A stretch of 59,730 nucleotides of DNA from a virus. The position numbers and the translations under genes were made by a program. Position 1 is the stretch's first letter. Each line of letters starts with the position of its first letter. The notes under the pieces are model-generated. The model did not search any database. It worked only from the letters and a program-made list of their open reading frames with translations, and had not been told where the DNA came from. Of the stretch, positions 5,435 to 48,551 are shown one piece after another. Location of the stretch: positions 1-59,730 of IMG/VR virus record IMGVR_UViG_3300024520_000076, one strand, 5' to 3'.

Positions 5435-5896
5435 CTATAAAAATACCCTGTTGGGTGCGTTATCGGGTCGGGGGACAGGCACATCTTCCCAAGCCTCATC
5501 GTTAGTTGTGTCGGGGTCATCACCAAGGAACTGCCCATCCTCATCCCTGCGTCTTACACGCTCAGTCTGGTCTGATGCCCACTCTATAAAATCTTCTGCG
5601 GGTTCTGGATCCATGTCTCCTTTGACATCCCTGAAAAGAACCCAATGCTTACCATCTGATACAGTTATGGGGGACTGCCATTCCATTCCTGTCTCATCTA
5701 TAATTGTTTCAGTCTCACCTGTAGGCATGATGTGTTCCCCGATCACTGTGAATACGTGAGTGTCACTCTGGGTCATCGGGATGGTTACTTCGATCCCATT
5801 TCCATCATCTTGGGTCGTGGTGAATCCCATCTGCTCTGCAAATGTCAGGGCTTGCTCTTTTGTCTCAAACTTTAAAAGGTAATCAATCATTTCCAT
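5435..5896 (-). CDS. Hypothetical acidic protein downstream of tail fibre
   Basis: A 153-aa acidic protein of unknown function. The N-terminus (MIDYLLKFETKEQALTFAEQ) resembles that of the neighbouring gene at 5883, a strand followed by a helix with E-Q-A, so the two may be distant paralogues. It also contains GMEWQSPITVSDGKHWVLF and an acidic, disordered C-terminal third. Start 5896 or 5890 is possible; both overlap the upstream stop. Its position after the receptor-binding fibre suggests a virion or fibre-assembly role, which I cannot show. Confidence 0.6.
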   Translation of the reverse strand: MEMIDYLLKFETKEQALTFAEQMGFTTTQDDGNGIEVTIPMTQSDTHVFTVIGEHIMPTGETETIIDETGMEWQSPITVSDGKHWVLFRDVKGDMDPEPAEDFIEWASDQTERVRRRDEDGQFLGDDPDTTNDEAWEDVPVPRPDNAPNRVFL

Positions 5897-22134: not shown

Positions 22135-24369
22135 TTATAATTCTTGGATCTCCATTGCGGTCTTTGCATCCCGTAACGATTGCTCCTGCTCAAACTTGGC
22201 TTGTTTGATTTGCATGTCAAGCTCAGCTTTTTGTTGTGCTATCTGCATTTTCATCTGGTGCTCCTGCATTTTAGCTTCCGCAGCAGGGTCAGGCCCTTCT
22301 TCAGTAGCCATATCTCCTTCAGCCGCACCCGCCTCCGTAGATTCACGCTGTAGTTTTTGAATATGCTTAGATGTGTTATTTATCATCTCTTCCGCATACT
22401 GTAACGCCTGTTTAGCTTGCCCGACTAACCCTTCCTGTAAAGGATCTCCCACAAGCTGCTCAGTAGTTGCCGCAATATGCTCATAAAATGCCTGTAGCGC
22501 AGGTAAAACAGCCGTAGGATCTGCTTGCCCAGCATCTAGCTGCTCAATAAGACCCATCAAGGCAGGAATGTGCTCCGCAAGATGCACTGCATGTAGCTCA
22601 GTCGTGACTACAGGAACTGGATTGCCCGCAGATAATTGTTGGTTTTCTAAGAACGCTATCTTTCCGTCTATCGTTGGCCTCGCTCCCTCGGCCACAGGGG
22701 CATACCTGTCAGCTAAATCATGACCCACACGAGTGGAAACTATGTCACGGGTAAGGTTCTTGCGCCCTACATCATCAAATGATCCCGCTATGCCTTGTAG
22801 CTCCCGTAACGCAACCAACCTGTTAGCATAAGATCCATTTCCAATAGACCTAACCGCTTTAGTCCTAGCTGTATCAAGACTCTTGATAAATGATTCCTGT
22901 ACCCCGCGCTCTGCACAACGACTATAAAATTCTTTCAACTCAGGATTGCCCTTCTTGCCCGACACAATCCTTCGGACTATTTCTTTAAGAAGCCTACCCC
23001 ATGATACATAGAACAGGTTTAAGGATGCACCAGATAAGCGGGTGCTAACATCTATGTCAGCTACCACCTGCATCTGATTCCTGTAAGGTGAACTCTGTTG
23101 AGGCCCGTATGTACTAACAGTATCAGTATTCTGAGCTAACTGGTTTGTAATATCCTCAAGAGCAGGTTGTACCCCAGTGCTCAAGTTAGGTGCAGCTTTT
23201 GTAATGATATTTACGTTGGGGGATAGGACAGCGTATGCTCCATAATAAGTGAACCCTAATTCATCTAGCGCCCTCTGGTTCTCTGGCTGAATCATAACCG
23301 CTGATCCTAACATCGCACCATCAATCATCTGGCAACGTAATCGGTTGCTCGTCTGAACGTGGTTAAAGATGCGATGCCCCAACCCGCGTATCGAATGGTA
23401 TGTGCCATTTGAACCCACACCATATGCGAACATCACGTACGCATGTTCTGGTTTTTCGTAACGGGAAATTTTTTCGTATAAGAATTTTTTAGGTTCCATC
23501 TCAGCGGAGATGTAATGAGATATACTTCCATCCAATTCCCTAACCCAAAAATGTAACACGGATATTGTAGGATTTTGATGCCCTCCATATATATCGTTGT
23601 TCTTCATCTCGGCTTGTAATGACTCCCAATCAGAATAATTATTTTTGGAGCTGCTCCTACCATCAGTAGTTACATTTTTAAGTAGCACTCTTTTTACCTC
23701 GTCCACATTCCATCCAACCTTTGCTGCCGCTTCAGGATTTTTGATAAAATTAAATAGCTCGTGCATGTGGTACTGCCTCCTACCAACAGCTACATCAATA
23801 GCCGCCTCAGAAGCAGGAGTCTGCCTCGGAATTAAAATATCAGCAAAACTCCCTACCCGAAATTTCCAGTCGTCTGGTGTATCAAAGTAGGTGATCCCTG
23901 TACCATGTTTTATGAACGTCGTACAAAGGCGCAAGTAGTGGGAATGGAATTCAGGCCAACTGCGTAGTAAATGAGTTATCTCTTCAGATACAATATCTTC
24001 CTGCTGGGTGATCTCACTGGGCTCTCCCTCCGTGCCCTTTACCTCCACTAGCTTTTCTAGTGAAGAGTAAAGGTCTACGTAGGCGGATAGCGAAATATCC
24101 AATAGCCGTTGAGCTTCACCAAAATTCAAATTAGTTTTAAGTCCCTGCCCACTTACGTTAAGCTGTGCTTGGTTGTATGGACTCGCCCCATCAAACATCG
24201 CATCCACCCTAGCTCGATTCACGGACGACTGCTCATCAGCTTTGCGAAGAGCTTGAAATAGACTCAGGGCGCTCTTTACATCTTTAATACGGCTTTTTAA
24301 AGGCTTACCTTTTTCGTCAAAAGTAGATAGTCCATCGAGTTCGTTCAGGGCATATGGGTCATGAGACAT
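22135..24369 (-). CDS. Portal protein (head-tail connector)
   Basis: A 744-aa protein, the expected size for a podovirus portal, which forms the ring through which DNA enters and leaves the head. The N-terminal third has the helical wing typical of portals (RLLDISLSAYVDLYSSLEKL), then a FRVGSFADILIPRQTP stem region. A GPQQSSPYRNQMQVVADID segment and a YRIVSGKKG-like helix lie further on. The last 80 residues are a Gln/Lys/Glu-rich coiled coil (MKMQIAQQKAELDMQIK). Position before scaffold and coat genes supports the call. Confidence 0.8.
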   Translation of the reverse strand: MSHDPYALNELDGLSTFDEKGKPLKSRIKDVKSALSLFQALRKADEQSSVNRARVDAMFDGASPYNQAQLNVSGQGLKTNLNFGEAQRLLDISLSAYVDLYSSLEKLVEVKGTEGEPSEITQQEDIVSEEITHLLRSWPEFHSHYLRLCTTFIKHGTGITYFDTPDDWKFRVGSFADILIPRQTPASEAAIDVAVGRRQYHMHELFNFIKNPEAAAKVGWNVDEVKRVLLKNVTTDGRSSSKNNYSDWESLQAEMKNNDIYGGHQNPTISVLHFWVRELDGSISHYISAEMEPKKFLYEKISRYEKPEHAYVMFAYGVGSNGTYHSIRGLGHRIFNHVQTSNRLRCQMIDGAMLGSAVMIQPENQRALDELGFTYYGAYAVLSPNVNIITKAAPNLSTGVQPALEDITNQLAQNTDTVSTYGPQQSSPYRNQMQVVADIDVSTRLSGASLNLFYVSWGRLLKEIVRRIVSGKKGNPELKEFYSRCAERGVQESFIKSLDTARTKAVRSIGNGSYANRLVALRELQGIAGSFDDVGRKNLTRDIVSTRVGHDLADRYAPVAEGARPTIDGKIAFLENQQLSAGNPVPVVTTELHAVHLAEHIPALMGLIEQLDAGQADPTAVLPALQAFYEHIAATTEQLVGDPLQEGLVGQAKQALQYAEEMINNTSKHIQKLQRESTEAGAAEGDMATEEGPDPAAEAKMQEHQMKMQIAQQKAELDMQIKQAKFEQEQSLRDAKTAMEIQEL

Positions 24370-25142: not shown

Positions 25143-25385
25143 TTATGAGCGGTTAGTCGTAAGCCCTTTTCGAGCCCTCCTCTTTGCCATAATACGCTCC
25201 TTATTTTTGGTGTAGTACTCTTCATTATAACTCCGCTGCTCTTTCGTCCACTTGGGGTTCTCAGCCCTCTTCCGATCCCTCATAGCTGCTATGCGGTCTT
25301 TATTCTTTTCGTAGTACTTACGCTGGTATTCGAGGCGTTTCTTCTTGTTATTCCTATAATATTCTTGCTTCTTTTCATCAGGCAT
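25143..25385 (-). CDS. Small basic protein with endonuclease VII-like N-terminal repeats
   Basis: An 80-aa Lys/Arg/Tyr-rich protein starting at ATG 25385. It consists of repeated YYxxNKxRI units (EYYRNNKKKRLEYQRKYYEKN; EEYYTKNKERIMAKRRARK). Such units precede the HNH domain in recombination endonuclease VII-like proteins, but no HNH follows here. It may bind DNA or be a truncated relative. Confidence 0.55.
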   Translation of the reverse strand: MPDEKKQEYYRNNKKKRLEYQRKYYEKNKDRIAAMRDRKRAENPKWTKEQRSYNEEYYTKNKERIMAKRRARKGLTTNRS

Positions 25386-25606
25386 ACTGAATCTTATAAG
25401 CGGGCCAAAAGAAGTCAAATTTTTTCTTATAACCCCCTATATATACAGATCAACACGCACAAAAACTCGTACACACAGGGGTGGCGTACCCCACAGAAGA
25501 ACCAAATCCACACGACTCATGGCTCATTGTACCCTGCACCGTTTACACGCCTATGGAATCCTGATTCATGCTTCTTGCTTCACGTTACCAGCTCCCACAA
25601 AAAAGT

Positions 25607-25655
25607 CAGGCTTCGCATTGTTTTTCGAGCGCAAGCGGTTAATAAGTTTAATGTT
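25607..25655. repeat. Direct repeat, copy 1
   Basis: CAGGCTTCGCATTGTTTTTC is followed by a GCGCAAGCG core and an AT-rich tail ending near AATGT. The first 22 bases are identical in the copy at 25752-25800; the rest is similar with scattered changes. Spacing is 145 bases. Confidence 0.65.
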
Positions 25656-25751
25656 TTATCATGCGGCGCTTCGCCTCGCTTTTTGCAAAAGCATCAGCGC
25701 ATCACCTTAGTTTACGTTTAAAGTGTAACCAATGTTAAATCAAAAGACAGA

Positions 25752-25800
25752 CAGGCTTCGCATTGTTTTTCGAACGCAAGCGAGTATTAAGCTCAATGTG
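25752..25800. repeat. Direct repeat, copy 2
   Basis: Second copy of the repeat at 25607-25655, here with CGAACGCAAGCG and a divergent tail ending in CAATGTG. The pair could be recombination scars or part of the structured locus. Confidence 0.65.
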
Positions 25801-25854
25801 TTGCGAAAGCGATTACGTTTAATGAGCACTTATATCGCCCACGCTTTCGTCCAC

Positions 25855-25924
25855 TTAAAGAGCACTAGCTTGGATCAGCCCCATCTCTTTCCGTGCTCTT
25901 TAAATTAAAAGGATGGGGCTGATC
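25855..25924 (+). ncRNA. Interleaved perfect stems, predicted H-type pseudoknot
   Basis: Arm A TTAAAGAGCAC (25855-25865) pairs perfectly with GTGCTCTTTAA (25893-25903, 11 bp). Arm B GATCAGCCCCATC (25873-25885) pairs perfectly with GATGGGGCTGATC (25912-25924, 13 bp). The order A-B-A'-B' cannot form two simple nested hairpins; both can form together only as a pseudoknot, or as two exclusive hairpins. Coordinates and complementarity were checked base by base. Function is unknown. Confidence 0.6.
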
Positions 25925-25981
25925 ATTGATCCCTGAATCTTGAATCCTGACTCATAGTCTAATAAGTATTCATGCAGGTCA

Positions 25982-26061
25982 TTTGTCTTTTCATCATGCT
26001 CCCCAAGCATGAGGAAAAGCCAAATAGGGGTTATCATTTTTCAAGTCAGTGAAAAGACAAA
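25982..26061 (+). promoter_or_regulatory. Hairpin with nested stem, overlaps the next terminator stem
   Basis: TTTGTCTTTTCA (25982-25993) pairs with TGAAAAGACAAA (26050-26061). Inside, TCATGCT (25994-26000) pairs with AGCATGA (26006-26012), and its CCCC loop could pair with GGGG at 26027-26030. The outer right arm shares bases 26058-26061 with the left arm of the hairpin at 26058-26157, so the two cannot both form fully. Confidence 0.5.
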
Positions 26062-26163
26062 GCGGGCTCTTAATCTCTTGAGGAGGGCATATATCCCGAT
26101 AGTTTTATTCTAGTGCCACGTCTAATAGATTATATATCCTCCTCAAGACCCGCTTTGTTTTTT
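26058..26163 (+). terminator. Long composite hairpin followed by a T-run
   Basis: CAAAGCGGG (26058-26066) pairs with CCCGCTTTG (26149-26157). CTTGAGGAGG (26077-26086) pairs with CCTCCTCAAG (26138-26147), and ATATAT (26089-26094) with ATATAT (26132-26137). T6 follows at 26158-26163. This has the form of an intrinsic terminator on the + strand with an unusually long, stepped stem. Confidence 0.6.
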
Positions 26164-26220
26164 CTAATTATAAGTTCATGTAGCTACGTCTTGGCTAAAG
26201 CCCCCCTGCTTCGCCGTTGT

Positions 26221-26297
26221 AAAAACAGGACAAGAATCACTATTCCACTCCCCCCTAATCAGGGGAAGTAAAACAGCTCCCTGTGTCCAGTTTTTTT
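26221..26297 (+). terminator. Second hairpin with T-run
   Basis: AAAAACAGGACA (26221-26232) pairs with TGTCCAGTTTTT (26284-26295) with one mismatch. An inner CCCCT/AGGGG hairpin lies at 26252-26265. The right arm runs into T7 (26291-26297). It looks like another + strand terminator, which suggests that the locus holds more than one transcript. Confidence 0.5.
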
Positions 26298-26323
26298 AAA
26301 CAGCATACACCGTTCATTCGCAC

Positions 26324-26957
26324 GAAGATTTTGTGCTCTAATCGACCTGCAAATTGTCGATAAGAGCAAAATCTTCAGCACTCAATCCCCGAAAATCACG
26401 TGTTTTTTATGTGTCGTGGAGACACAAAAAACATGTGCCCAAGCCCTTCGGGCCGAATTCCCTCTTCTCCTAGTCATCATAGATGACGAAGATTTTATGA
26501 CTGGTTCCAAAACCAAACGAGTTTGGTTTTGCTGAATTCACAAAATTTCATGGCTCCTCTCGAGCCGAAATTTTATGTTCTTTCAGATCAAAATCTTCCG
26601 TCGGGCGAGAAAATCCCTTGGTTTTTGGGGCTGTTGTCTATTCCTTTAAACGCTAGGGTAGTTCGTTACAACAAGGCAGGAATAGCCATTAGCAGCACTA
26701 AGGCTCCGCCCTTAGCACTGGAACTGAACGCCCCTTAACAAATTTTCTCTCACTCAACCATTTTTACAAGGGCTAACCGCCCCAGTAAAAATACGGCCTC
26801 GTTTCTTCGGGATTAATGAACTCGCTAAAGGGGGAGATTCCCCCGACTGCGGCGTGTCCTCCGTCGTTCTTGCGTTTGTTCCTGAGCCCCTTCTTTTCCA
26901 TTTTTCTGTCCTCCACGGAGTTATGGACAAAAAAAGTGAAAAAGAAGACAAACGCAA
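26324..26957 (+). ncRNA. Candidate structured noncoding RNA or long 5' leader
   Basis: Successive stems fill this stretch: 26324-26346 with 26356-26376 (20 bp, one 2-base bulge, one mismatch); 26397-26415 with 26421-26437; 26443-26446 with 26450-26453; 26485-26496 with 26590-26602, enclosing perfect stems 26508-26518/26521-26531 and bulged 26542-26556/26562-26574; 26638-26645 with 26678-26685; 26698-26703 with 26710-26715; 26760-26767 with 26785-26792; 26830-26835 with 26839-26844; and 26870-26879 with 26948-26957. The pattern of bulges, nested branches and one G-U pair points to RNA structure. I do not recognise a known RNA family. Confidence 0.5.
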
Positions 26958-27096
26958 TCGCTCCCTCGGCCAGTCCTCATCGGCTAAATCTCAGCAGGAT
27001 TCTCGCTTGAAAGAAAATTTAAATACTTTAGTTGAAGCAAGTTTAGATTCAACTTCTACAAATAATAACAACAATACTAAACATAAAATAAAATAT

Positions 27097-27567
27097 ATGG
27101 CTACACAAAATAGCAACAACCTATCTGGTAAGAACTTCAAAACTGAACTAGATCTTACCTTATTAACCGCAATAGCACACACTATTGTTAACCACGAAAC
27201 AGCCTGTCTTGAAAATATGGTAAGAATATCTAAAGGACACATATGGCTAACTGTTTTTAACTTCTTCAAAAGAGATAAAAGCGGAGTCGCAACTGTTGAT
27301 GAATATGAGAACACTCATTCAACTAGTTTCAATACAACCCAAGAACAAAGAGAAAACTTTGGTGACATCGTTATCAAAGACAAAAAAGGCAACCCTATGT
27401 GCAACAACAAAGGTGAACCTTGGACTATTGCCTCTGTATTCTGTGGTAATACTCAGGAACTTGGACTCGTAAGAACAGCAGAAGAAGACGTACCTGACTC
27501 TGATGATCTTATTAACAAACTCGAAGCCATAGCTAAAGCTAAAGAAGAACTTGCTTCAAAAGCATAA
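27097..27567 (+). CDS. Unknown early protein
   Basis: A 156-aa protein, first gene of the + strand early block. ATG 27097 (MATQNSNN) follows an AT-rich leader; the frame is open further upstream to 26854, but that part runs through hairpins and has no protein-like character. It contains a helical segment (LTLLTAIAHTIVNHETACLENM), GHIWLTVFNFFKRD, and an acidic helical C-terminus ending KAKEELASKA. I recognise no domain. Confidence 0.65.
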   Translation: MATQNSNNLSGKNFKTELDLTLLTAIAHTIVNHETACLENMVRISKGHIWLTVFNFFKRDKSGVATVDEYENTHSTSFNTTQEQRENFGDIVIKDKKGNPMCNNKGEPWTIASVFCGNTQELGLVRTAEEDVPDSDDLINKLEAIAKAKEELASKA

Positions 27568-33836: not shown

Positions 33837-33855
33837 AACTAAAGCGTACAAAAGG

Positions 33856-33890
33856 ATACCTACTAGAATAAAAACTAGTAGGTATTTTTA
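33856..33890 (+). terminator. Rho-independent terminator ending the early block
   Basis: ATACCTACTAG (33856-33866) pairs perfectly with CTAGTAGGTAT (33875-33885), 11 bp, loop AATAAAAA, and is followed by TTTTA. It ends the + strand block that begins at 27097. Confidence 0.8.
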
Positions 33891-33952
33891 TGCTAACCTA
33901 AAGAGAAGTCAGGCTCGCAAGCTCGCTTTGGTTTTGGAGGGCGGGCAACAGC

Positions 33953-34048
33953 CATCTGAGATTTAAATCCAAGCATCTGTCTAATTTTTGGACCCCCCGC
34001 CTTTCAGGCATCTGAGATTTGGGCGGCGCTTTCAGGCATCTGAGACTT
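33953..34048. repeat. Three CATCTGAGA copies, REP-like
   Basis: CATCTGAGATTT at 33953 and 34009, and CATCTGAGACTT at 34037. The last two lie in a 28-base unit that begins CGCYTTTCAGG and contains the symmetric TCAGGCATCTGA. This resembles short palindromic intergenic repeats. Confidence 0.5.
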
Positions 34049-34193
34049 GCGCCCTGATCCCTGACTCCTGACTCCTCTCCCATAGGAGTTGCCGAAGTGC
34101 GCCTAAAAAAACACACTCTATAAAAATAGGGTTTTGGTACTCTAACGAGGCATGAATCGCGAAAAAACTTGCATTCCTGAACCATAGCACATG

Positions 34194-34272
34194 TCTTGTG
34201 AATAGGGGGTGCACTGGATTACAAACTATCTGAGTTTTAGTATGCACACTTCTTGTGAATAGGGGGTGCACT
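34194..34272. repeat. Two 22-bp direct repeats, 57-base period
   Basis: TCTTGTGAATAGGGGGTGCA followed by CT occurs at 34194-34215 and 34251-34272 without mismatch. Each is preceded by GCACA three to eight bases upstream and ends in palindromic GTGCAC. They lie about 40-120 bases before a likely promoter, so they could be regulator binding sites or iterons. Confidence 0.6.
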
Positions 34273-34312
34273 AAAACACTCCTAATTAATTCAAAAGAAT
34301 TAAAGAAAAGTC

Positions 34313-34341
34313 TTGACCATTAATCGTGCATGATGTACCCT
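34313..34341 (+). promoter_or_regulatory. Possible promoter for the second early block
   Basis: TTGACC (34313-34318), 17-base spacer, TACCCT (34336-34341). The -35 is good and the -10 keeps only TAnnnT. A start near 34348 would give a leader of about 90 bases holding the 34374-34413 hairpin. Confidence 0.4.
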
Positions 34342-34373
34342 TGATTGTTGTTATACGGCAACACAATGAAGCG

Positions 34374-34413
34374 CCCCTCTCAGAAGGCTTTGTGTATGTC
34401 CTTCTGGGAGGGG
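34374..34413 (+). promoter_or_regulatory. Leader hairpin upstream of the gene at 34441
   Basis: CCCCTCTCAGAAGG (34374-34387) pairs with CCTTCTGGGAGGGG (34400-34413): 14 bp with one U-G pair that fits + strand RNA. No T-run follows and the start codon is 28 bases away. An RNA stability or attenuation element is likely. Confidence 0.55.
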
Positions 34414-34440
34414 TAATTTAAAACTAAACAAAAACAAACT

Positions 34441-36687: not shown

Positions 36688-36983
36688 TACGTTATCGTTC
36701 AGCGGATTGGTACTCTTGTGACCCAGCGCCTCTTGATCCTAGGGTGCGCCCTCATGAAATGGTCGAGCGCATAACGACCAAGGAAACGCCAAGCAAATTA
36801 ATTATGATAGACGAAGAAACCGATGAGGAATTTCTTTCTCGGTTTGGGTTAGGGTGCGGCGACCTGCCCTCAGATTATCCCGAACGAATAAAGCGAGCTA
36901 CCCACCACCCACGTACAATGAGTATTGTAATGGACAGGCAGTATGTTGCTTGCCATTCAGATGCCATCCACCCTGCATCCTGA
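36684..36983 (+). CDS. Unknown protein, last gene of the second block
   Basis: A 99-aa protein starting with GTG 36684 after a GAGGAGG Shine-Dalgarno. It has IRYRSADWYSCDPAPLDPRV, four Cys and several His residues, so metal binding is possible but no clear zinc finger spacing is seen. Its last residues run into a CCTGA-rich stretch. Confidence 0.45.
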   Translation: MIRYRSADWYSCDPAPLDPRVRPHEMVERITTKETPSKLIMIDEETDEEFLSRFGLGCGDLPSDYPERIKRATHHPRTMSIVMDRQYVACHSDAIHPAS

Positions 36984-37140
36984 ACCCTGACCCCTTGATT
37001 CTGAGCTAGGAATAAAGCTAGAGGAGAACTCTGGATGAGGCGTTTTTCATAGTAACGTCTTTGATGAACACCTAGTTTAGAATCAAGGGGTTAGGGAATC
37101 CCCTATTGTTTATTACTTATTTGATGTTATTTTAATAAGT
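36984..37140 (+). promoter_or_regulatory. Structured leader of the third early block
   Basis: CCCCTTGATTCT (36991-37002) pairs perfectly with AGAATCAAGGGG (37079-37090), and inside it CTAGG (37006-37010) with CCTAG (37071-37075). The same GGGG can instead pair with CCCCT at 37101-37105, giving two exclusive folds. The start of the next gene is 36 bases further. It looks like a regulatory leader. Confidence 0.55.
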
Positions 37141-37629: not shown

Positions 37630-37860
37630 ATGAGTCTTAAACGATATCTTAAAATTGATGGCGGGGGTGACTACTCATGGCTTGCTCTTAAATCTATCTA
37701 CGGGAGATATGAAATAACAGGGGATCGTAAAGGATCTCGTGTCCTTCTATTCCGTGGACTGAGCGAAGACAATGCCATAGCGCACTTTAAGAACTTGGCA
37801 AACAAGCACGGGGCTTATTCGTTAAGCCGCCCTCTTACAAACTATCTGGTACGTACTTAG
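37630..37860 (+). CDS. Unknown small protein
   Basis: A 76-aa protein (LKIDGGGDYSWLALKSIYGR; EDNAIAHFKNLANKHGAY) with an alpha-beta pattern. It ends tail to tail with the giant gene, overlapping by four bases. Confidence 0.5.
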   Translation: MSLKRYLKIDGGGDYSWLALKSIYGRYEITGDRKGSRVLLFRGLSEDNAIAHFKNLANKHGAYSLSRPLTNYLVRT

Positions 37861-40800
37861 TTCTCGTCGTGCCTGTAGAAGCGTGGGATGTTCTTGAAGT
37901 AAGCGTCTAGTAGGCGCTCTCTTCGAAGGAAAAGGGCGATCCCTGTGCTCTCGTATTTATCCCGCAGTTTCTTTTTCAACCCCTTGTGTGTTTCCCTTGG
38001 GGTTTCAGTTAAACCATTAAGCATAAATTTGTACCTACGTTTTCCGAACTGCGCTCCATGAACTATGTTCCGCACTTCTTCCTCAGTCATGCCCGCCAAT
38101 GAGCCTAGGTGTTTTAGCGTATGTGCCACCTCTTTATCCAAACGAACTCTGTGGTCTATTTCATCTAGCACTAAACCCTTTATATCGTTATCAGAAAGAG
38201 GGGATTCACTAAGAACTTTATTCTTTCTAAGGGATATACTTTGTGTTTCTCTTCTTACGTCAAATAGGTATCTCCTCATGTTTTTTTGGATGTCTACTTT
38301 GTAGGGCTTTACAGGTAGGAATTCCTTTCCTATTCGTTTCATTACATCTTCTACAGGGTTAGTCCCCATCATCGTTATTGCTTCTCTACCCGCTTTCATA
38401 GTCCTTGGCTGGAATGCTTCTTCGAATAAATATTTTGCCCCCTTTAAAAATGCATCTTCAGCAGTATCTCTTTCTTCCCATATCTTTTTGTTTGTTTGCG
38501 GATCTCTATTAGCTTTTAAATTTAAGGCTGCTCCTGCAAATATCTGATCATCTAGGTACTCATCGACGATCATAGATTTAACAAAAGCAATCCCCATTTC
38601 TGCGGCGCTCCCTCCTGTAGCTCCTATTTCAAAACTACGTAAGAACGGGTCTACTATTAAAGAGAACGGATTCAGGTATGTTAAGTCTGTTGTCCATAGG
38701 TTCCCTTCATCATCTTTGGTTATATAGAAGGTATGGTTTTTGAGGTACTCTACTAAAGTCCTTCTTAATGCCGCATCTTCCTCATCGTCAACTCCTTCTC
38801 CTAACCTCATCAGTAGTGGAGCAACTGCGGATAATCCTACAGTTACAGAAGTCAATCCAAATAACCGCCTCAAACCTCTCCTTTTAATGACAGGGTTTTT
38901 ATCTTTTATTTCACTGAAGCTCCGCCGTAAAGTATTAATTGGTATTCTAATTAATTCGGTTTTGAATCGTATAAAAGGAGCGAACATCACACCAGCAGTA
39001 GATTTAGTCCATCCCTGTACAAATGGGGAAGACCTACTGTATGACTGGGCGGTATCTAAAACTATATCTGCCGCCGCTCTCTCAAGTTGGTTCTCTGTCA
39101 TATGGAAATACTTATCATCTCTGCCTTTTGCTACCGAATTTGCTTTAGCTTTCTTTAAAACACCAAGCTCATGTTCAAAATAGTATATCTTATAGAAGGT
39201 ATCCATCGTCGCTGACATCTCTTTGAGATTAGTGTACGCCTTGTGTAATGCGGTTCCTACTTTCTTTAAGTCTTCTGGCGTTGTACTCTCATCGGACAGT
39301 TCGTTGATGTCCTTCGTTGTCTCATATATGCGTTTCATCAAATCATTTGGGTCTGTATCCCCAGCGAATAATTCTTCCAACATCTTAGGACGGATCTCGT
39401 CGCCAATAATATCTAAAGCATCCAGCTTAGAATAGTAGGCATTAAGTTTTTCTGGCCCTAGTACGCCTTTAAAAAAGAATCCTTTTTTGCGTCCAATCTC
39501 TTTAATCATACTCCCTGTCAACGCCACAGGAGCTAGTATTCCTTGGGCGGGGCCGAAGAACAGTACGTTACTTAATGAGTTCCTTAAATAGAATCCTATG
39601 GAGCCTAATGTTTTAGCTGCCATTGATGACCCCGTTAACACCTGAGCTGCTTTTGTAATGCCTCTAGCTACTTGTTGCCCCTCATTCATTGAAAGAATAA
39701 CGCTGTCCCTTATTTCTTTCAAAGATTCCACCATTTCTGTGGGGGCAAAATATGATTCGTTCTTCCCTATGATTACGAAAGGATCATAGCGGGCATCCCC
39801 ATCTGCCATAAGAGTCCCCCATTTTTTTTGTTCTTCTAGCTCAAGACCCTCATGCTCGGCTCCAGTAATAATCCATCTGTTCTTTGCTTGTACCCCAAAA
39901 TCCAAAAGGTTTTTGAGGAACGCCTGATGAGATGCCATTATACCTACATGCATATAGGTACGCATAATCGCATCATATCCAGTAGAGTCTCCTTCTTCTC
40001 CCATTAGTTGCCTTAACGCATCTGGGATATTTTTCCTCCCCTTTAATTTTTCTTTTAATATAGCGGAAAACCCTATCCTGTTGTTTTTATCCTTTACCAT
40101 TTTGTTGGGGTCGATAAGTAATGCGTCTCCTGTACTATATGAGTTGAGAAACTCAATCATCATATTGTGTATCTTAGGGGGCATCTCAGTAGATGTTTTT
40201 CCTTGCCCTTCTGATAGCTCTGCCCTTGCTATAACTTCTGCGTCCCCCAAGCGGGTTACTACTTCGCCCGCTTTAACGTCGTCTGTAACATCAAGATCTG
40301 CGCTCTCCTCGGTAAACTTCTCGCTATTCCTGAGAATTTGAGCCGACCTTGCATTTATATATTCCTGCGTAAAAAACTTAGCTGCTTCTTCTCTTGCTGT
40401 TGCATACTTCTTCTCATGTAAAACTTTTCCAGCAAAGAACGGGTCTGAAAACAATTTGTATGATCTTGTTAAGTATATTTCCAAGTTACCGTCTATGGTC
40501 CCCTTCAAGGACTTCTGCATGTCCTCATCATTAGGGAACAGGACGGCTATCTTTTTAGAAAAAGCATCTGTCTTTTTCCTTAGCTCTAATAAGTGTAGCG
40601 CTATAGCTCCTTTGGGGGTTCCATCTTCTTCGTACCCTCCTAGTCGCATGATAGCATTATGTCTTCTATGAGCGATTAATGCTTTTTTATTTTGGTACGC
40701 CCTTTTGTAAGCCAGCTCTTTGTTATTCTCTAATTGTTTTATTTCTTCCAGTACTTCTTCCAACTCCCCGTTCCTTTTCTCACTCTCCTTCTCCTCTATG

Positions 40801-43800
40801 AGAGCTAATCGTTTATTATTTAAGACTACCTTTCTTTCCCTATACTTCTGCTCTATAAAATCATGTATCTCTGGTTCCAGTTTCAATGTCTCCCCGTCAC
40901 CTGTAATATCTTTAAACAATCCAACAGGGGCATCTCCATCTGGGTACTCTTTAGCAACCAAATAATCCAACCTACCTTTATACTTTTGTATCTCATTAAA
41001 GACTGCATTACGTAATGCCGTAGCTTGTTGATTTAATCTTTGAAGTCTTGGGTCAGCGCCTCCGACCAACCACTTCATAATTCCTTTAGGCTGTCCTTTA
41101 TACTTCCCTGTCTTGAACATAGGAAGGGTCAGCATAGCGGTTAAGTCTCCGTGTTTAAATATAGTGGGAGTCTCCCCATCTCCAGCAATTTGTGACTCTG
41201 TTATTTCTACCTCTTGGGTAGTAGTCGTGTCTGGCCCTGCTTCCAAGATGCTCGGGTCAAAAACAACAACTTCTCTTACATTCTTATCTGTGCCTTGCAT
41301 GTACTCAACAACACCTTTAATGTCCACAGAGGATAAAAGTAACCGTGTGACATTCCTTATTTGGTTGGGTGTCCAGTGAGATGTGGGCTCTTGTGGGTTG
41401 ATCCCTGCGTCCTCTACGATCTCGTAAGGGACTACTGTCCTTTCTTGCATCACCTTACCGCCCTCTATGTCGGCTGTGCCCATCCTTCTATTAAGAGCCC
41501 CTATAAAATCGTTCCCTGCTCCTTCTCTATGCGGCCAATAAACCTTACCTTTTTCAGTAAACTCACTCCAATCTTTATATGGAACTTCTTCCCTCACAAC
41601 ACCGCTACTGTCTGCCTCGGGGTGTCCCTCGCCTACGTATTTTTCTACTACGTAGCTTAACTTTTGTGCGAGCTTATCTAGTTTACCTTGCAGCTCTGAG
41701 GACCATTTCGATCCTATTCTATAGATATCCCCCTCGTGCCTTTTTTTAACTCTGAGTCTAAAAAGGTTTCCTCTGGCTTCGTAGGTACTGAGGCGGCTTC
41801 TTGCGTTATCAGTTGCCCCTTCATTAGAAGCTAAGAAATAAATACCAGCACCATTGATAGCGGCTGTTCCCTTAAAGTCTGATTCGGACCACCCAATACG
41901 AGCCCAGTCGAATCTTTTAATGTCGTCTACCTTTTGATATGTGAAGAGATCCTTATTTGTAAAGCTCTCGGGTATTTTGGATGATTCTACAATACCTATA
42001 CCTACTGCTGGTGTAGGTATTGTAGCCGTGAACAGTTTTTGTATTTCCTCTTTCCCTCTAGCCGTGATATCTCTTGAGCCTATTCCAGCAAATTTATCTG
42101 ACAAAGTAGGGGGTCTGCTTGTTACCCAGCTACCTTCTCTGTCCAAGTGGGGAGCCCACTTGTGCCACTGATTGGACACCATGTCGAAGACATGAACTTC
42201 TTTCCCCTGATCTATCCCCATTTGGGTGGCCCACGCAGTACCACCTTTCACTTGACCCCCCACAAAGCGGCTTACAGCTATTACTTGGTCAGAGTCCCTG
42301 ACCTGAAACCAATTTCTTCTGAGGAGGTTGTTCACAAACTTCCCCTTGGTAGGCCATGCTCTATCAAGAGTTTCATTGGCCTTAGCTAGATGTTCGTTAG
42401 CTTCCTTTAGTTCCTCTGCGGTATGTGGGGTGCGGTGCTTATTGCCCTTAGCATGTCCTTCAAATGAGTGAGCCTCTACCTTGAACCCTGCTTCCAGAGC
42501 TGCGAACTCGAACGCTGTATCTGCTCCAGACGCTCCTCCAGAATGGAGAACCCTCTCTACTGCTGGAGTCCCCCCGTCCCCCAAATAGTTTAAAGTCATA
42601 GGGTCACGCAACCCGAGATCAACGAGAATCTCATGTATAGCTCTGGCTTGTGTATTTACATTATCTCCATCCCCTCCAAATTTATCTGTTAATACTTTAC
42701 CTGAACTAGCCCTTCCTATTTCAGCTAACGCTTTTGGGTTAGCAATAAAATATTCTGCCCACAACCCCTTATAAGTTGCCCAGTACCAGCTATCTTCTCT
42801 GTCCAAGTGGGGAGCCGCTGGTAACCCCTTTCCTGATTGTTTAGCCTCTTTTTGCCACACATATTCTATTGTTTTTCCAGAAGGGAGCTTTGCTTTCTTA
42901 GCGGAGAACTTTACTCCTATTCCTTCTTCATCCTTCCCTGCTGTTGACACCTCAAACCCTTCAAATCCTTTACGAGCAACTTTACCAAATCCTCTCGGTG
43001 AGGCTGTATCTACTGGTGGTGCTGTATCTCTGAGTAGCTTATGGAACCCTTCTTCAAACACAATATTGGAGGGTATCTCCCCTGCGTCTAAATACATTTT
43101 AGCCATCTGCGCCCCTGTCCAGCCACTCAATCCCCCTTTCGTTTTCTGAGCTACTAAGAATTCTTTATCTGGCTTAGAACGAGCTGTATCATATAGCTTA
43201 CGAATATTTTTAGTTATCTCTTCTGGTGATAATGATTTTTTATCTGTTGCTGTTTTCTTAGTAGGGAGCGCATAGGAAGTTCCATCCTTTCCATCCTGAA
43301 GTCCTTCAGCTTGCCCTTTTACATTCCACTTACCTTCTTCCCCTTTCTCCTGCTTATTATAATTACTGTCTGCTCTAAGTTTCTTAAACTCATCTACACT
43401 TTTCCCCTCACCAAAAGTTGCGTACCCTGCTGCCCCTGCTCCGTGGAAACCCTGTAGGTTGGACCCGAACACAAATACTTGGTTTTTGTCTAGGGAGGTT
43501 ACTTCTCCTTTGTATGTTTTCGAAGGAACAACCTTTGATGCTGCTCTTCTTTTAATAACAAACGTCTTTAAAGCTTCAGCGTGATTAGGCTTGATATTTT
43601 CATCATAATATAAAAGACTTTTTCCATCTAAAGCACCACTATCAATCTGTCCCAGAATCCATTCCCTACGGTTCTGATATTTATCTTTATGCTCAAAGTC
43701 TTCATCACCTTCCAACCATTTACGATAATATTCTACAGTCTGATCTAGGTTTTTAGTTGGTATAGTATTTTTGAAACCTCGATGACTAAATGGATTACCA

Positions 43801-46800
43801 AAATGTTTTTCCCCAACATCCCATTTTCTAAGTACGTTTATACCATCTCCAGCATCTTCTGCATCTTGAACTAATTCAGTAACCTTTCTCCCTTTTTTTC
43901 GTTTAACATAAACAACATTTGGTTCGGCTACAGGCGCTGGTGGTCCTTTCTCAATTCGATCTACGACGGAAGAAAAGTTTGCTATTTTAGCCTCGTCAGT
44001 AGCGTCTACATCCAAAGGCACTATCCCTAAATTCTTTTCGATAGCCTCGCTGAGTTTATCTAGTCCTTGTACACTAGAGTTCTGTATAATGGGGGGTATT
44101 TCTATTTCTGTATTAGGTATAAATTCAGGAAGAACTTGGGGGCCGCTCCCATCTGAATTAAGTGGTTCTCTAATGTCTCCGAACTCTTCATCAAGGCTTT
44201 CGGCTACTCTCTTTAAAGTAGGGCTTCCATAGAAATCATCTACGTCTTTCTGTGTTGGTCCTTTATTGAACCAACCTTTTTTCTTACTTAACCCGAAAAT
44301 AGGATACCATTTCCCCGCATTCGGCTTTCCTCCTAAGCCTGTTGAAAGATAGAAAGGAACAACCACACCATTTACATTCCTAAAAACAATAGCCCTCTTA
44401 GCAAAATTAACCATAGGTGCTGAGTTTGTCTCATCATAAGGAACATCTACTGCGGTAACTTGTGGCTCTCCAACATAAACATCAACGGGGTCCATACCCC
44501 TATCCGCTTCTGATACCTTTGTCTGCCCTTCGAAAGTATGTATGACTTGTAATGGATTATCAGGGTCAAATGCTGGGACATGCTCTGTTGCATACCCCGA
44601 TTTCATATCATTATACGCGGCGACGACTCGATATGCCATCTTCCGAAGTACAGGATTATCTCCAGATTTACTATTTAGGATTTCCAGAAGTTTCCCACTT
44701 AGTTTTTTCAAGTGGCGTACGAATATCTTCAGTAAACTAGGGTTCCCTTTAAAGAAATCTGCATCCTGCTCTGTGGTGGTTCCACTTAATATACGCTGGG
44801 CGTGCATACGTAAAATTTCTTTTGCTAGGGTTCGTTGCTCCGCTTGCCATCCAAACCCCTCCTGCACTTCAACATCAGTTTGTTGCAGCCTTGCCCGCGC
44901 TGCTTCCCTGTCCTCCTCCTTCGTGTAATAAGCTTCTATAACAAAATCAATATCTTCTTGTGACAAAGATTGATATACTTCAGTGAGTTCCTCAGTTGTC
45001 AGGTCTGCTAAAGTAGCATGATGTATTACTTCCTCTATAAGACCAGCCCCTGCTAAGTTCCGAGCGTTAAAATTTGATAAATTTTTAAGTGCATCTCCTA
45101 ACGCTCTAGGCTCTATGCGTATGTAAGCCTCTGTTTCAGTTACTACATGGGAGAAAGCTTTGATGGGCTTCCCACTATCATCCGCATACTTCCTCTGTTC
45201 ATCTGACACAAACTTCACATCGACTCCAAAAGCACGGCCTAATAAAACCAATTCATTTAGAGTGCCCTGAAGGTTAGCAAGTGCGTCCTGTTCTTGTGGT
45301 GTATGGTCTTCATTTATAGTTGTAAATATCTCTATTTGTTTTGCGTGTTTAGGATCAACAGGGGCTTCTGCCTCTGCTGCGTCTTCATCCTTTGTCTCCT
45401 CCTTTGTCTCCTCCTTTGTCTCCTCCTTTGTCTCCTCCTTTGTCTCCTCCACAATAACTTCAGCCTCTGTATTTTCTATTACTGCTTTATCCCCATTCGC
45501 TATGGTGTTTATCAGGTCTTCTTTTTCTTTTGCTTGTTGCTCTGGAGTCTTCTCTGTAGCTAGTTCACCTTCAACTTTTTGTACGTCTTTCCATTTTATA
45601 CCAACAGCTTCGGCTGCTTTTTCGTTGGCTTCCATCTCCATAGCAATGGCAGCAGGGTCCATTAAGTCATCAGGATAACTTTCTTGGTGTCGTAACTGGG
45701 CGTGTGCCCTCTCATGTTCCTCAATAAATTTAATGTACCCGTTAACTCCACCCTCACTCCCCCTTAGTTTCTTTTTTAACTTTGCTAAGTCTACATCTTT
45801 GAAAACTTCTTTCTTCTGTTGTGAAGTCTTGCTGTCCACATCACCTGCCAAATAAGGGAGAGGCTCATCGGCATTAAAATCTTCTGCTATGTCCTGAGTA
45901 TATAAAGTTATCTCCCCCGTTTCTCTATTCAGCCCAGCTAACTGACCTGCTTTTTTAGATGAATCTTTTACTATCGATATCCCTAATTCCTCATCTGAAA
46001 CTTTCTGGCTAGCGTCTGCGAGCTTCTGGGATTGCTCAATGGCAGTCCCTATCATAGTACTATAATCCTTTGGCATCTCCCGCATTTCTGTCGCACGTAG
46101 CTGTTGCCTCGTGATTCCTTCCATTACAACATTAGCAGTCAGTGGAGAGTTGGTTTCTTTTAGGTGTGCTATTAATTTAGTTTCTTCGCTCTGCCTCAAC
46201 ATCTCCACCTCTCCTCGGGCAAAAGCCCCTTTCTTTTCCGCTATCGCCCTGACTCCAGCAGCCCCCTGACCAATTACACCCCCTATTGCTCCTGCGTATA
46301 GCGCAGCAGATACCCTTTCAATCATAGGGGTATTCTCATTTAGCGCCGCATCTACAATAAACGAATTAATAAACTCATCTATACCCTCCTCAAAAAATTC
46401 TTCAGTTCCACTTTTCAGATACCTTCTGTATATATCAGGGAATACTTTAGGTACAACTTCTTTAATCCTTCCCGATAACCATGTACGCATCGCCTCGCCG
46501 TGTTCGGACTTAGTTATCTTAGACCTACGCATTCTTTCCAAAACAGATCTGTGTTGCTTGTAAGTGATCCCCCTAAGAAATGCATCTTCAAAACCACCCG
46601 CACCAACACTACTGAACCCTGCTGTTATAATACCTGTTGCCATACCTGCCGTTAGCGCAGCGCCTAAAGCGGCATCATGTTTCTCTTCATGCGTACCTTC
46701 CATGTTACCATAGACCGTGGCATAAGTAGCCCCTGATGATCTATTAGCAGCGGTCAGGAATAAGGCAGAAGTCTGTACCCCCGTTACTAAGTTGCTCCTT

Positions 46801-48551
46801 ACTTCTTTTTCTACTTGTTTTCCTACTCCCTTTTTGGTTACTGTTTTGGTTACCGTTTTAGTAAGTAGTCCATTATAGGCATTAATAGCCCCTATAACAT
46901 CCGACCTCTTGGCTGACTTCGTTATATATCCCTTTACCCTAAGTCTAGCTGCTGTCCTTCCCGCATCTTCACCAAACTTTTTAGCAAATACACTGCCCGT
47001 TAAACTTTTTGTAAGTCCTTTAGCGGTAACTCTGGTTCCTTGTTTTAGTCCTACGTAAGCAGCCCCGCCTATACCAAATGTACCTGAACTCAACAGGACT
47101 GTAGCACTAATATCAACCACCATTGGTGCTATTGCAGTAGCAACATCAGTAGCGAACCCAAATTTATCCCCAAATATTTTAGCTACTTCTCTTCTGTTCT
47201 GCCTATCTTCTTCTTGCTCTACCAAGAAATCAATCGCCCCTTTATTTTCCATTAAGGCAGGTACTATAAAAAGCAGCCCCGTAAAAGAATCTGCGATAGA
47301 GGCCCCTAATGCGCCTACTCTGTTTTTTACCCCACTATAATTCTTAGGGTTTATAAGGAACTCCTCCAATACCTCCCCGTTAGAATCGCCATCTTGTTTT
47401 CCTTTTATTTTAGCAGCCGCCCATTTGTTTTCTACCGTGGAGTCTTTGAATAGCTCATCATACCTAGGGAATTGACGAGTAAAGAAATCTTTCCTGAAAT
47501 TAATAAGTGAGCTTCTTTGTCCTTTTGTTAGGTCTGAACGTATTTCCAGAGCAGAATCAAACTTCCCTCTGTCTAACAATAACTCAATATGAGGTATGAC
47601 AGCGCCATTCTTAGTTACTTTTATATTGTCCCCAATTTTATCTATATTAGATTCATACTTAGCTTCTCCTGTTTGGTACGCTTCAAAGATAGCCACCTGT
47701 TCCAGAGCGTCCATGATATCTGAATCCTGAAACCTGTTCCGTGAAACATTTTCCTTGATGTCTTTACCACGAGAGTACTGGTTAGCAAGAAGGGTTCGTG
47801 CTTTAGTGATCAGGGCAGAGGGGTCACCTTCTTCTTTATTATCTATAAAATAATTTTTAGATTCTTTTAATATCTCCCTATAGAGATCTTTATCTTCTTC
47901 GGATTGTGAGGCAGAAGAAAACTCAGTCCTGACTTGGTTATCACGGATAGCTTTAAAGGCGTTAACTCCTTTATATACATCGTTCATTCCCGTGGCTACT
48001 TGCCACATATCTCTGTGGCGAATAGCTCCCCTCCGTATAGAATCAGCTATGGCTTTTTTACTATCTAATATATTAGACCCCCCAATCAATTCATAACTGA
48101 TAGCGCCATCAGCTCCTTGTCTTCTAAGGGAGGCGAGGCTTAATCTGTCATGCTCAACTAAATGCTGTTTAGCTTCATTGACTTCATCCACAAAGTCTTC
48201 TCTAGCTCCTCCATTATTAATAGAGTCGTAGTAATTATCCCGTGCTTGTTGTCCGAAAGCGTCATAGATGAGAGCGGCATCTGTCTCTGTAGTGCCAGCG
48301 TCAAGTTGTTGTGTGTGCTCAGGATCTATTTGAGTGACTCTGGGGAGTATATTATTTCTTATGGCTTCTTCTGCATCCCGATCTAGCGTCCCTCTTTCAA
48401 ATTCGAATTCCCGTAGATAATTACCGTACCCAATCAGCTTGTCCTTTTCGTCGGTTACACCAGTTCCCGCAGAACCTGTCCATTGGTTAAAATTTAAGGG
48501 GTTAGTATATGCGTCATTACCTGACGAATCAGTTATAAGTTCTCCTGTCAC
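37857..48551 (-). CDS. Giant polyvalent-type virion protein, 3564 aa
   Basis: A GTG-started protein likely packed in the head and ejected with DNA, beside two other internal-type proteins. Regions in order: hydrophobic, membrane-prone segments (about 410-500, 640-790); a zincin-like domain with HERAHAQLRH near 946 and a later EANEKAAE; an EETK tandem near 1040; an EEVIHHA segment near 1172; a FYLSTGLGGK module near 1400; a DUF4326-like domain (about 1545-1665, KHFGNPFSHRGF); a VFVFGSN domain of the A1S_2505 type near 1690; a SLOG-like domain (HSGGASGADTAFE near 2005, FAGIGSR near 2156); an ART-like GAGIYFLAS near 2235; then about 1100 residues of helices resembling large-polyvalent-protein C-termini. 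Domain names rest on motifs only. Confidence 0.75.
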   Translation of the reverse strand: MTGELITDSSGNDAYTNPLNFNQWTGSAGTGVTDEKDKLIGYGNYLREFEFERGTLDRDAEEAIRNNILPRVTQIDPEHTQQLDAGTTETDAALIYDAFGQQARDNYYDSINNGGAREDFVDEVNEAKQHLVEHDRLSLASLRRQGADGAISYELIGGSNILDSKKAIADSIRRGAIRHRDMWQVATGMNDVYKGVNAFKAIRDNQVRTEFSSASQSEEDKDLYREILKESKNYFIDNKEEGDPSALITKARTLLANQYSRGKDIKENVSRNRFQDSDIMDALEQVAIFEAYQTGEAKYESNIDKIGDNIKVTKNGAVIPHIELLLDRGKFDSALEIRSDLTKGQRSSLINFRKDFFTRQFPRYDELFKDSTVENKWAAAKIKGKQDGDSNGEVLEEFLINPKNYSGVKNRVGALGASIADSFTGLLFIVPALMENKGAIDFLVEQEEDRQNRREVAKIFGDKFGFATDVATAIAPMVVDISATVLLSSGTFGIGGAAYVGLKQGTRVTAKGLTKSLTGSVFAKKFGEDAGRTAARLRVKGYITKSAKRSDVIGAINAYNGLLTKTVTKTVTKKGVGKQVEKEVRSNLVTGVQTSALFLTAANRSSGATYATVYGNMEGTHEEKHDAALGAALTAGMATGIITAGFSSVGAGGFEDAFLRGITYKQHRSVLERMRRSKITKSEHGEAMRTWLSGRIKEVVPKVFPDIYRRYLKSGTEEFFEEGIDEFINSFIVDAALNENTPMIERVSAALYAGAIGGVIGQGAAGVRAIAEKKGAFARGEVEMLRQSEETKLIAHLKETNSPLTANVVMEGITRQQLRATEMREMPKDYSTMIGTAIEQSQKLADASQKVSDEELGISIVKDSSKKAGQLAGLNRETGEITLYTQDIAEDFNADEPLPYLAGDVDSKTSQQKKEVFKDVDLAKLKKKLRGSEGGVNGYIKFIEEHERAHAQLRHQESYPDDLMDPAAIAMEMEANEKAAEAVGIKWKDVQKVEGELATEKTPEQQAKEKEDLINTIANGDKAVIENTEAEVIVEETKEETKEETKEETKEETKDEDAAEAEAPVDPKHAKQIEIFTTINEDHTPQEQDALANLQGTLNELVLLGRAFGVDVKFVSDEQRKYADDSGKPIKAFSHVVTETEAYIRIEPRALGDALKNLSNFNARNLAGAGLIEEVIHHATLADLTTEELTEVYQSLSQEDIDFVIEAYYTKEEDREAARARLQQTDVEVQEGFGWQAEQRTLAKEILRMHAQRILSGTTTEQDADFFKGNPSLLKIFVRHLKKLSGKLLEILNSKSGDNPVLRKMAYRVVAAYNDMKSGYATEHVPAFDPDNPLQVIHTFEGQTKVSEADRGMDPVDVYVGEPQVTAVDVPYDETNSAPMVNFAKRAIVFRNVNGVVVPFYLSTGLGGKPNAGKWYPIFGLSKKKGWFNKGPTQKDVDDFYGSPTLKRVAESLDEEFGDIREPLNSDGSGPQVLPEFIPNTEIEIPPIIQNSSVQGLDKLSEAIEKNLGIVPLDVDATDEAKIANFSSVVDRIEKGPPAPVAEPNVVYVKRKKGRKVTELVQDAEDAGDGINVLRKWDVGEKHFGNPFSHRGFKNTIPTKNLDQTVEYYRKWLEGDEDFEHKDKYQNRREWILGQIDSGALDGKSLLYYDENIKPNHAEALKTFVIKRRAASKVVPSKTYKGEVTSLDKNQVFVFGSNLQGFHGAGAAGYATFGEGKSVDEFKKLRADSNYNKQEKGEEGKWNVKGQAEGLQDGKDGTSYALPTKKTATDKKSLSPEEITKNIRKLYDTARSKPDKEFLVAQKTKGGLSGWTGAQMAKMYLDAGEIPSNIVFEEGFHKLLRDTAPPVDTASPRGFGKVARKGFEGFEVSTAGKDEEGIGVKFSAKKAKLPSGKTIEYVWQKEAKQSGKGLPAAPHLDREDSWYWATYKGLWAEYFIANPKALAEIGRASSGKVLTDKFGGDGDNVNTQARAIHEILVDLGLRDPMTLNYLGDGGTPAVERVLHSGGASGADTAFEFAALEAGFKVEAHSFEGHAKGNKHRTPHTAEELKEANEHLAKANETLDRAWPTKGKFVNNLLRRNWFQVRDSDQVIAVSRFVGGQVKGGTAWATQMGIDQGKEVHVFDMVSNQWHKWAPHLDREGSWVTSRPPTLSDKFAGIGSRDITARGKEEIQKLFTATIPTPAVGIGIVESSKIPESFTNKDLFTYQKVDDIKRFDWARIGWSESDFKGTAAINGAGIYFLASNEGATDNARSRLSTYEARGNLFRLRVKKRHEGDIYRIGSKWSSELQGKLDKLAQKLSYVVEKYVGEGHPEADSSGVVREEVPYKDWSEFTEKGKVYWPHREGAGNDFIGALNRRMGTADIEGGKVMQERTVVPYEIVEDAGINPQEPTSHWTPNQIRNVTRLLLSSVDIKGVVEYMQGTDKNVREVVVFDPSILEAGPDTTTTQEVEITESQIAGDGETPTIFKHGDLTAMLTLPMFKTGKYKGQPKGIMKWLVGGADPRLQRLNQQATALRNAVFNEIQKYKGRLDYLVAKEYPDGDAPVGLFKDITGDGETLKLEPEIHDFIEQKYRERKVVLNNKRLALIEEKESEKRNGELEEVLEEIKQLENNKELAYKRAYQNKKALIAHRRHNAIMRLGGYEEDGTPKGAIALHLLELRKKTDAFSKKIAVLFPNDEDMQKSLKGTIDGNLEIYLTRSYKLFSDPFFAGKVLHEKKYATAREEAAKFFTQEYINARSAQILRNSEKFTEESADLDVTDDVKAGEVVTRLGDAEVIARAELSEGQGKTSTEMPPKIHNMMIEFLNSYSTGDALLIDPNKMVKDKNNRIGFSAILKEKLKGRKNIPDALRQLMGEEGDSTGYDAIMRTYMHVGIMASHQAFLKNLLDFGVQAKNRWIITGAEHEGLELEEQKKWGTLMADGDARYDPFVIIGKNESYFAPTEMVESLKEIRDSVILSMNEGQQVARGITKAAQVLTGSSMAAKTLGSIGFYLRNSLSNVLFFGPAQGILAPVALTGSMIKEIGRKKGFFFKGVLGPEKLNAYYSKLDALDIIGDEIRPKMLEELFAGDTDPNDLMKRIYETTKDINELSDESTTPEDLKKVGTALHKAYTNLKEMSATMDTFYKIYYFEHELGVLKKAKANSVAKGRDDKYFHMTENQLERAAADIVLDTAQSYSRSSPFVQGWTKSTAGVMFAPFIRFKTELIRIPINTLRRSFSEIKDKNPVIKRRGLRRLFGLTSVTVGLSAVAPLLMRLGEGVDDEEDAALRRTLVEYLKNHTFYITKDDEGNLWTTDLTYLNPFSLIVDPFLRSFEIGATGGSAAEMGIAFVKSMIVDEYLDDQIFAGAALNLKANRDPQTNKKIWEERDTAEDAFLKGAKYLFEEAFQPRTMKAGREAITMMGTNPVEDVMKRIGKEFLPVKPYKVDIQKNMRRYLFDVRRETQSISLRKNKVLSESPLSDNDIKGLVLDEIDHRVRLDKEVAHTLKHLGSLAGMTEEEVRNIVHGAQFGKRRYKFMLNGLTETPRETHKGLKKKLRDKYESTGIALFLRRERLLDAYFKNIPRFYRHDEN
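42127..42156. repeat. 30-bp direct repeat inside the giant gene, copy 1
   Basis: Encodes the second APHLDREGSW segment of the giant protein. 29 of 30 bases match 42787-42816, 660 bases away. The pair flanks the SLOG-like coding part. Confidence 0.75.
42787..42816. repeat. 30-bp direct repeat inside the giant gene, copy 2
   Basis: Encodes the APHLDREDSW segment that precedes the SLOG-like region. The pair suggests a past duplication or insertion. Confidence 0.75.
45391..45450. repeat. Five 12-bp tandem units encoding EETK
   Basis: TTTGTCTCCTCC repeats five times from 45391, giving an acidic-basic Glu-Glu-Thr-Lys linker in the giant protein. Such tandems slip easily and vary in copy number. 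Confidence 0.75.

Follow-up and report, generated by a model that had tools for sequence, protein, structure and literature searches.

A structured noncoding region at the early/late control point of an essentially uncultured virus clade may encode a large, fast-evolving RNA

Genomic setting of the locus

What is encoded by the ~1.4 kb of non-protein DNA that separates the early and late genes of a virus is the question raised by this locus. The DNA analysed, referred to here as the window, is a whole virus record of 59,730 bases. As described in the initial annotation, the locus lies between the two main transcription directions, flanked by a leftward late operon on one side and a rightward cluster of small early genes on the other, 'early' and 'late' being labels that we infer from gene content and direction. 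Two open reading frames form its borders:

25143..25385, minus strand: small basic protein, opening the leftward late (portal) operon; left border
27097..27567, plus strand: divergent gene 1, the first early gene, with a gene-typical codon-usage score; right border

The small basic protein carries YYxxNKxxRLxYQ repeats and had no match in a Pfam search; its homologs adjoin the same promoter in most loci. The leftward operon also contains a conserved portal-sized protein (22135-24369), which none of the family libraries names and which we read as the portal from its size and place. Used as a query, this protein recovered 59 loci in IMG/VR, and its alignment recovered at least 190 related loci. 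As a search of 50,697 phage records gave 0 matches to it and database phages reach at most about 25-34% identity to the terminase, the clade is, judging from these searches, essentially uncultured. Two genome-collection matches sit in metagenome bins labelled Opitutae and Acidimicrobiaceae. Gene 1, which starts at 27097 or possibly at 26923, recovered no relatives as a query; by eye, it has an FCGN..EL motif in common with the gene in the same place in the relative L002.

Elsewhere in the window, positions 37857-48551 encode one 3564-aa protein that combines DprA-like with several unknown phage domains. An N4-like affiliation, with the hairpins of the locus as virion-RNA-polymerase promoters, was considered and dropped, because no PDB match was obtained for this protein and N4 promoter hairpins are far smaller than those at this locus. 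A cos/packaging site was likewise rejected, the terminase genes being located at 51-54 kb. The contig ends (59133-59730 and 1-398) appear by eye to split one DNA-polymerase-like gene, and the record is therefore probably circular, or incomplete at these ends.

Putative late promoter element and 7-bp repeats

Two features occupy the left part of the locus:

25391..25487, minus strand: conserved late-promoter element with an invariant core in 34 aligned loci and near-fixed box spacing; boxes ACGCCAC (25481-25487), T-tract (25461-25465), TATATATA (25438-25445), GAAAAAATTTGAC (25414-25426; -35) and TAAGAT (25391-25396; -10)
25490..25600, also 25927-25955, no strand assigned: degenerate 7-bp repeat zone (TGAATCC TGATTCA ...), detected by lag self-identity

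The GAAAAAATTTGAC box is identical in 34/34 aligned loci, lies ~30 nt upstream of the small basic protein and is followed by a -10-like box; TATATAT, the T-tract and ACGCCAC precede it, separated by about two helical turns with little variation in spacing. The same control point, comprising the promoter, the upstream boxes and degenerate 7-bp repeats, was found in about 44 relatives (e.g. L002, L008 and L053), in many of which a structured noncoding gap precedes the divergent early genes. A reading of the boxes as the terminator of a leftward RNA was rejected: the hairpin before the T-tract is not universal, and the conserved boxes are therefore best read as a putative late promoter with upstream protein sites. 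The GAAAAAATTTGAC promoter and its boxes mark the late operon in much of the clade and may be usable as a DNA signature for these viruses.

Across 49 loci (-300..-66), the self-identity excess of the repeat zone is 0.087, 0.067 and 0.053 at lags 7, 14 and 21 (SE about 0.004), and this 7-bp periodicity is almost gone 300-900 nt further from the promoter. The zone at 25490..25600 has a 57-85-nt match to L002. Heptads (TGAATCA TGATTCC TGAACCA ...) run into the promoter, with further copies, seen by eye, at 34055-34080 and 36975-37000.

The degenerate repeats lie beside TATATATA and A/T tracts at near-fixed spacing, an arrangement that would suit a DNA-level element, namely an origin of replication or a region of single-strand initiation where the hairpins, AT-rich boxes and iteron-like 7-bp repeats act as DNA. 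The many perfect palindromes would also suit such an element; L009, for example, has 0 wobbles in 166 arm bases. However, 25-27 kb shows no change of GC skew, the boxes at fixed spacing lead into a typical sigma-70 promoter located ~30 nt ahead of a start codon, and the covariation found in one group of relatives (see below) favours one strand and extends across a multibranch fold. We consider a DNA-level element improbable.

Structure and coding content of the window

Inverted repeats were counted at >=8 net pairs and a span <=130 nt, with 60 dinucleotide shuffles as control. Positions 25855-26957, for which a cluster of strong inverted repeats had been claimed, contain 16 of them (422 bases covered) compared to 3.0±1.35 in the shuffles (maximum 7). 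This is the densest stretch of the record, which has on average 2.6 inverted repeats per 1.1 kb; the two 1.1-kb segments spanning the region rank first and second. Folding of both strands, proposed as a check in the initial annotation, yielded MFE z-scores of -10.6 (minus strand) and -9.3 (plus strand) for the whole gap (1615 nt) relative to dinucleotide shuffles. The bulges, nested branches and G-U pairing reported earlier were also recovered, the former for example at 26051-26164 and 26484-26602, the latter as wobble positions on both strands (6 vs 5, a strand-neutral count). The structured stretch begins further left than proposed, at about 25600, with the 62-nt repeats and the hairpin at 25798-25855. 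Its elements are:

25596-25657 and 25741-25802, plus strand: two 62-nt direct repeats, 82% identical
25798..25855, plus strand: hairpin H1, stem 25804-25811/25842-25849 (CGAAAGCG/CGCTTTCG), with a counterpart in L122
25855..25924, plus strand: two overlapping stems, S1 and S2, with an analogue in L002
25855-25865/25893-25903, plus strand: S1, 11 bp with a 27-nt loop
25873-25885/25912-25924, plus strand: S2, 13 bp
25981..26025, plus strand: bulged hairpin
26051-26066/26149-26164 and 26076-26093/26131-26148, plus strand: nested helices
26239..26277, plus strand: hairpin around CCCCTGATTAGGGG
26324..26376, plus strand: long hairpin with base stem GAAGATTTTG/CAAAATCTTC
26397..26437, plus strand: hairpin with arms CACGTGTTTTTTATGT and ACACAAAAAACATGTG
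26484..26602, plus strand: branched hairpin with inner hairpins 26508-26531 and 26539-26577
26697-26714 and 26760-26793, plus strand: two hairpins
26870-26879/26948-26957, plus strand: long hairpin enclosing 26890-26905/26932-26947

The overlap of S1 and S2 may correspond to an H-type pseudoknot or a switch. The branched hairpin at 26484..26602 has the same base-stem sequence (GAAGATTTT.../...AAAATCTTC) as the hairpin at 26324..26376, and the loop of the last hairpin contains the possible alternative start codon of gene 1 (26923).

In agreement with the earlier finding of no credible gene, codon-usage scoring of the core frames identified none as convincingly coding, with the exception of 26923-27096, which has gene-like codon usage, is in frame with gene 1 and may represent its N-terminal extension. 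This segment would fit an untranslated or degenerate coding region, either a lost gene or a long N-terminal extension of gene 1. The other core frames are short with low or inconsistent scores and hairpins are much denser than in coding DNA, making such an origin of the region very improbable.

The initial annotation had also considered several RNAs, each with its own terminator. Terminator-like sites are about as frequent as expected (5 vs 2.8±2.2) and 0 of them have a strong U-run at a structural boundary, and this arrangement is not supported; no strong early-strand sigma-70 promoter or terminator delimiting an RNA was found in the window. A second noncoding island in the early region (33837-34440) contains a terminator hairpin with a U-run (33860-33895), along with a CATCTGAGA-type repeat that occurs three times and CTTGTGAATAGGGGGTGCACT, which occurs twice.

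Structured gaps and covariation in relatives

The window shares a noncoding gap of 0.8-1.6 kb (MFE z -3 to -19) with L122, L002/L003, the L053 group, L043 and others, while the gap is just 150-300 nt in many other relatives. The lowest values were obtained for L122 (-19.5/-15.6), and most other structured gaps range from -3 to -12. The gap sequence is mostly not alignable across lineages, and structure was therefore tested within lineages. L002 and L003 alone were set aside as a covariation test, being too similar.

Four relatives alignable over the gap (L053, L054, L015 and L063) formed the covariation set. Near the divergent gene they contain a 280-nt domain in which a helix encloses three hairpins and further hairpins flank it. 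On the early-gene strand this domain has 92 pairs, with 98.9% of cells paired, and 21/92 pairs are changed on both sides compared to 7.9±2.0 in shuffles (0/500). These four sequences also served to derive the structure, a circumstance in its favour that the shuffle and slide controls offset only partly; when partners were moved by 1-3 columns, <=2 covarying pairs remained and the signal was lost. The covariation spans 9/13 helices, including one with arms about 115 nt apart that encloses branches, and covarying pairs pass through G-U intermediates. Relative to column-shuffled alignments, the early strand has an alifold covariation z of 8.3 and the opposite strand one of 5.6; the 73 pairs predicted on both strands include five wobble cells, of which 5/5 read as G-U on the early strand and 0/5 on the opposite one. 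The early strand also fits better in L006/L008 (z -18 vs -12.8) and in L029/L051 (z -7.8 vs -5.9), and their covariation was reached in 0/40 shuffles.

Conserved, covarying stems, whose absence from homologous regions the initial annotation had named as refuting, hence exist in relatives, mostly in sequences different from those of the window. The notion of a structured noncoding locus is borne out in that the structure is non-random and a strongly covarying domain is homologously placed in relatives; its division into several separately terminated RNAs is not.

Hairpins with compensatory changes can arise and persist through template switching (PMC8794818), and the palindromes could accordingly be a mutational by-product, made and perfected in neutral spacer and without function. 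Stem sequences and loops turn over fast across lineages, the loops of L002 and L003 have been replaced wholesale, and weak inverted repeats pooled over pairwise comparisons show no excess of compensatory change, which is limited to helices supported by RNAalifold. Template switching is hard to reconcile, however, with covariation in 9 of the 13 helices, including the widely spaced arms and the G-U intermediates, and a neutral kilobase is unlikely to survive in so many compact phage genomes. We therefore regard a by-product without function as quite improbable.

A covariance model of the L053-group RNA (R1) was run on about 80 loci and the window. R1 matches only the L053 group (including its contigs L107 and L182) and L041 with its duplicate L134. 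The diverged L041 copy (73.8 bits, E 1e-19) has a different gene order, with the gene-1 homolog on the other side of the R1 copy. As the RNA thus lies beyond the gene-1 homolog, it is not the leader of one particular gene. No R1 match was obtained in the window at E up to 5, or in L122, L002 or L043, and wider pattern scans for the 113-nt core common to L041 and L053, and for H1, identified no further recognisable members.

Several repeats accompany these structures. In L008 and L006, about 900 nt of structured sequence (-610..-1510 and -605..-1430 from the -35 box, respectively) is located after the first gene and contains four or five hairpins with a common loop core, AAUGAUCYGUCAGG, on stems of differing sequence. 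L041 contains the palindrome TTAACAAGCTCTTGTTAA about eight times in intergenic DNA (e.g. 5796-5814, 5514-5532 and 5030-5054), and in the L053 group TTAACAACTNAGTTGTTAA flanks the RNA on both sides. These are possible operator sites, perhaps for the gene-1 protein.

Direct links between the window and relatives

The window is tied to its relatives by single elements and by position; whole folds do not match. Its gap is too diverged for a covariation test of the whole region, and covariation in the window comes from one hairpin, H1. The L122 counterpart of H1 is 58 nt long, with 11-nt ends identical at the same spacing, and its stem (CGAAATTG/CAATTTCG) differs from that of the window by two compensatory pairs. 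L002 encodes an 11-bp stem with a 27-nt loop that also pairs downstream, a topological analogue of S1/S2. Furthermore, two elements occur in the same order in both L122 and L002, a long enclosing stem and a hairpin close to the gene, with one compensatory pair each; one pair change between L122 and L002 fits the opposite strand. Single-sequence folds of L122 and L002 resemble the R1 layout, with a multibranch domain and hairpins before the divergent first gene, the window less so.

Proposed function and its alternatives

Taken together, we slightly favour an interpretation of the region as the source of a large structured noncoding RNA that evolves fast and is read in the early direction (plus strand). 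Such an RNA would be read rightward from the divergent early/late control region, would fold into successive hairpins with one or more multibranch domains, and would work as a folded molecule rather than as a message. The element in the window would be made as RNA and expressed early. It would act largely in trans, most likely serving as a platform or decoy that binds host or phage factors, because its place relative to gene 1 varies and its sequence turns over; the L041 copy beyond the gene-1 homolog likewise implies that the RNA is not tied to one downstream gene. Against this reading, the opposite strand folds slightly better relative to its shuffles in the window and in L122/L002, R1 has no match in the window, and several relatives have a short gap only. 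Membership of the window element in the R1 family is hypothetical, as is one giant RNA across the region, the covarying part in relatives being 280 nt.

The main rival is a cis-acting leader of the early transcript, whose hairpins would serve as attenuator or antitermination elements on the nascent mRNA, like HK022 put RNA, and set how far RNA polymerase proceeds into the early operon. Known put elements are short, and >1 kb of hairpins far exceeds what such a leader would need; moreover, the structured stretch comes after the first gene in L006/L008 and L041, and no conserved RNA-polymerase-binding motif was found. Conversely, it lies 5' of most early genes in the window, L122, L002, the L053 group and L041, the U-tailed terminator hairpin downstream (33860-33895) means that readthrough would need help, the mutually exclusive stems at 25855-25924 look switch-like, and HK022 put provides a precedent for cis-acting RNA in an early phage transcript (PMC9378689). 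A cis leader is conceivable but unlikely; an origin-type DNA element and template-switch palindromes are less likely still, though conceivable for the window itself, where one hairpin carries the covariation.

A broader and more tentative possibility is that the structured RNA is clade-wide, an early RNA whose position and folded character are kept while its sequence is almost wholly replaced across lineages, and which would represent a new class of large phage RNA. What selection keeps would then be the hairpin array or fold itself and not a fixed sequence, serving for instance as a scaffold or decoy in an arms race. Few large structured phage RNAs are known and their functions are open, and here a large uncultured clade has structured noncoding stretches absent from Rfam at one conserved control point, with strong covariation behind the structure in one lineage. 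With position fixed and sequence variable, the clade offers many natural variants with which to ask if the fold itself is selected.

Comparison with known phage RNAs and repeats

The earlier statement that the locus cannot be matched to GOLLD or ROOL agrees with our searches. At the gathering threshold, Rfam yielded 0 matches in the whole record and no ROOL match in the relatives L041, L053, L015, L122, L002, L043, L009 and L008; at E up to 10, positions 25400-27150 returned only chance-level miRNA-type hairpins, GOLLD being absent, and ARAGORN identified no tRNA in the record. A location near tRNA islands is typical of GOLLD but not obligatory; an ordered 14-mer nanocage would be a further mark of GOLLD, and high transcript abundance one of ROOL. 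The resemblance of the locus to both is limited to scale and ornateness. Both are large phage RNAs of unknown function, often located near tRNA islands, and ROOL is a several-hundred-nt RNA with pseudoknots (PMC12286853). In contrast to GOLLD, the locus sits at the early/late divergent control region in a record without tRNA genes, and in contrast to ROOL, it is not near tRNAs and its sequence turns over across lineages.

HK022 put is made up of structured RNA elements that belong to an early phage transcript (PMC9378689), as is predicted for the locus. The put elements are small and lambdoid, whereas the locus comprises >1 kb with many hairpins at a variable position relative to the first early gene. 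The 7-bp repeats find a parallel in marine Beggiatoaceae genomes, which likewise contain intergenic 7-nt direct repeats, in this case of the heptamer TAACTGA (PMC4679880); in contrast to these, the phage heptads are degenerate and anchored beside one conserved promoter element.
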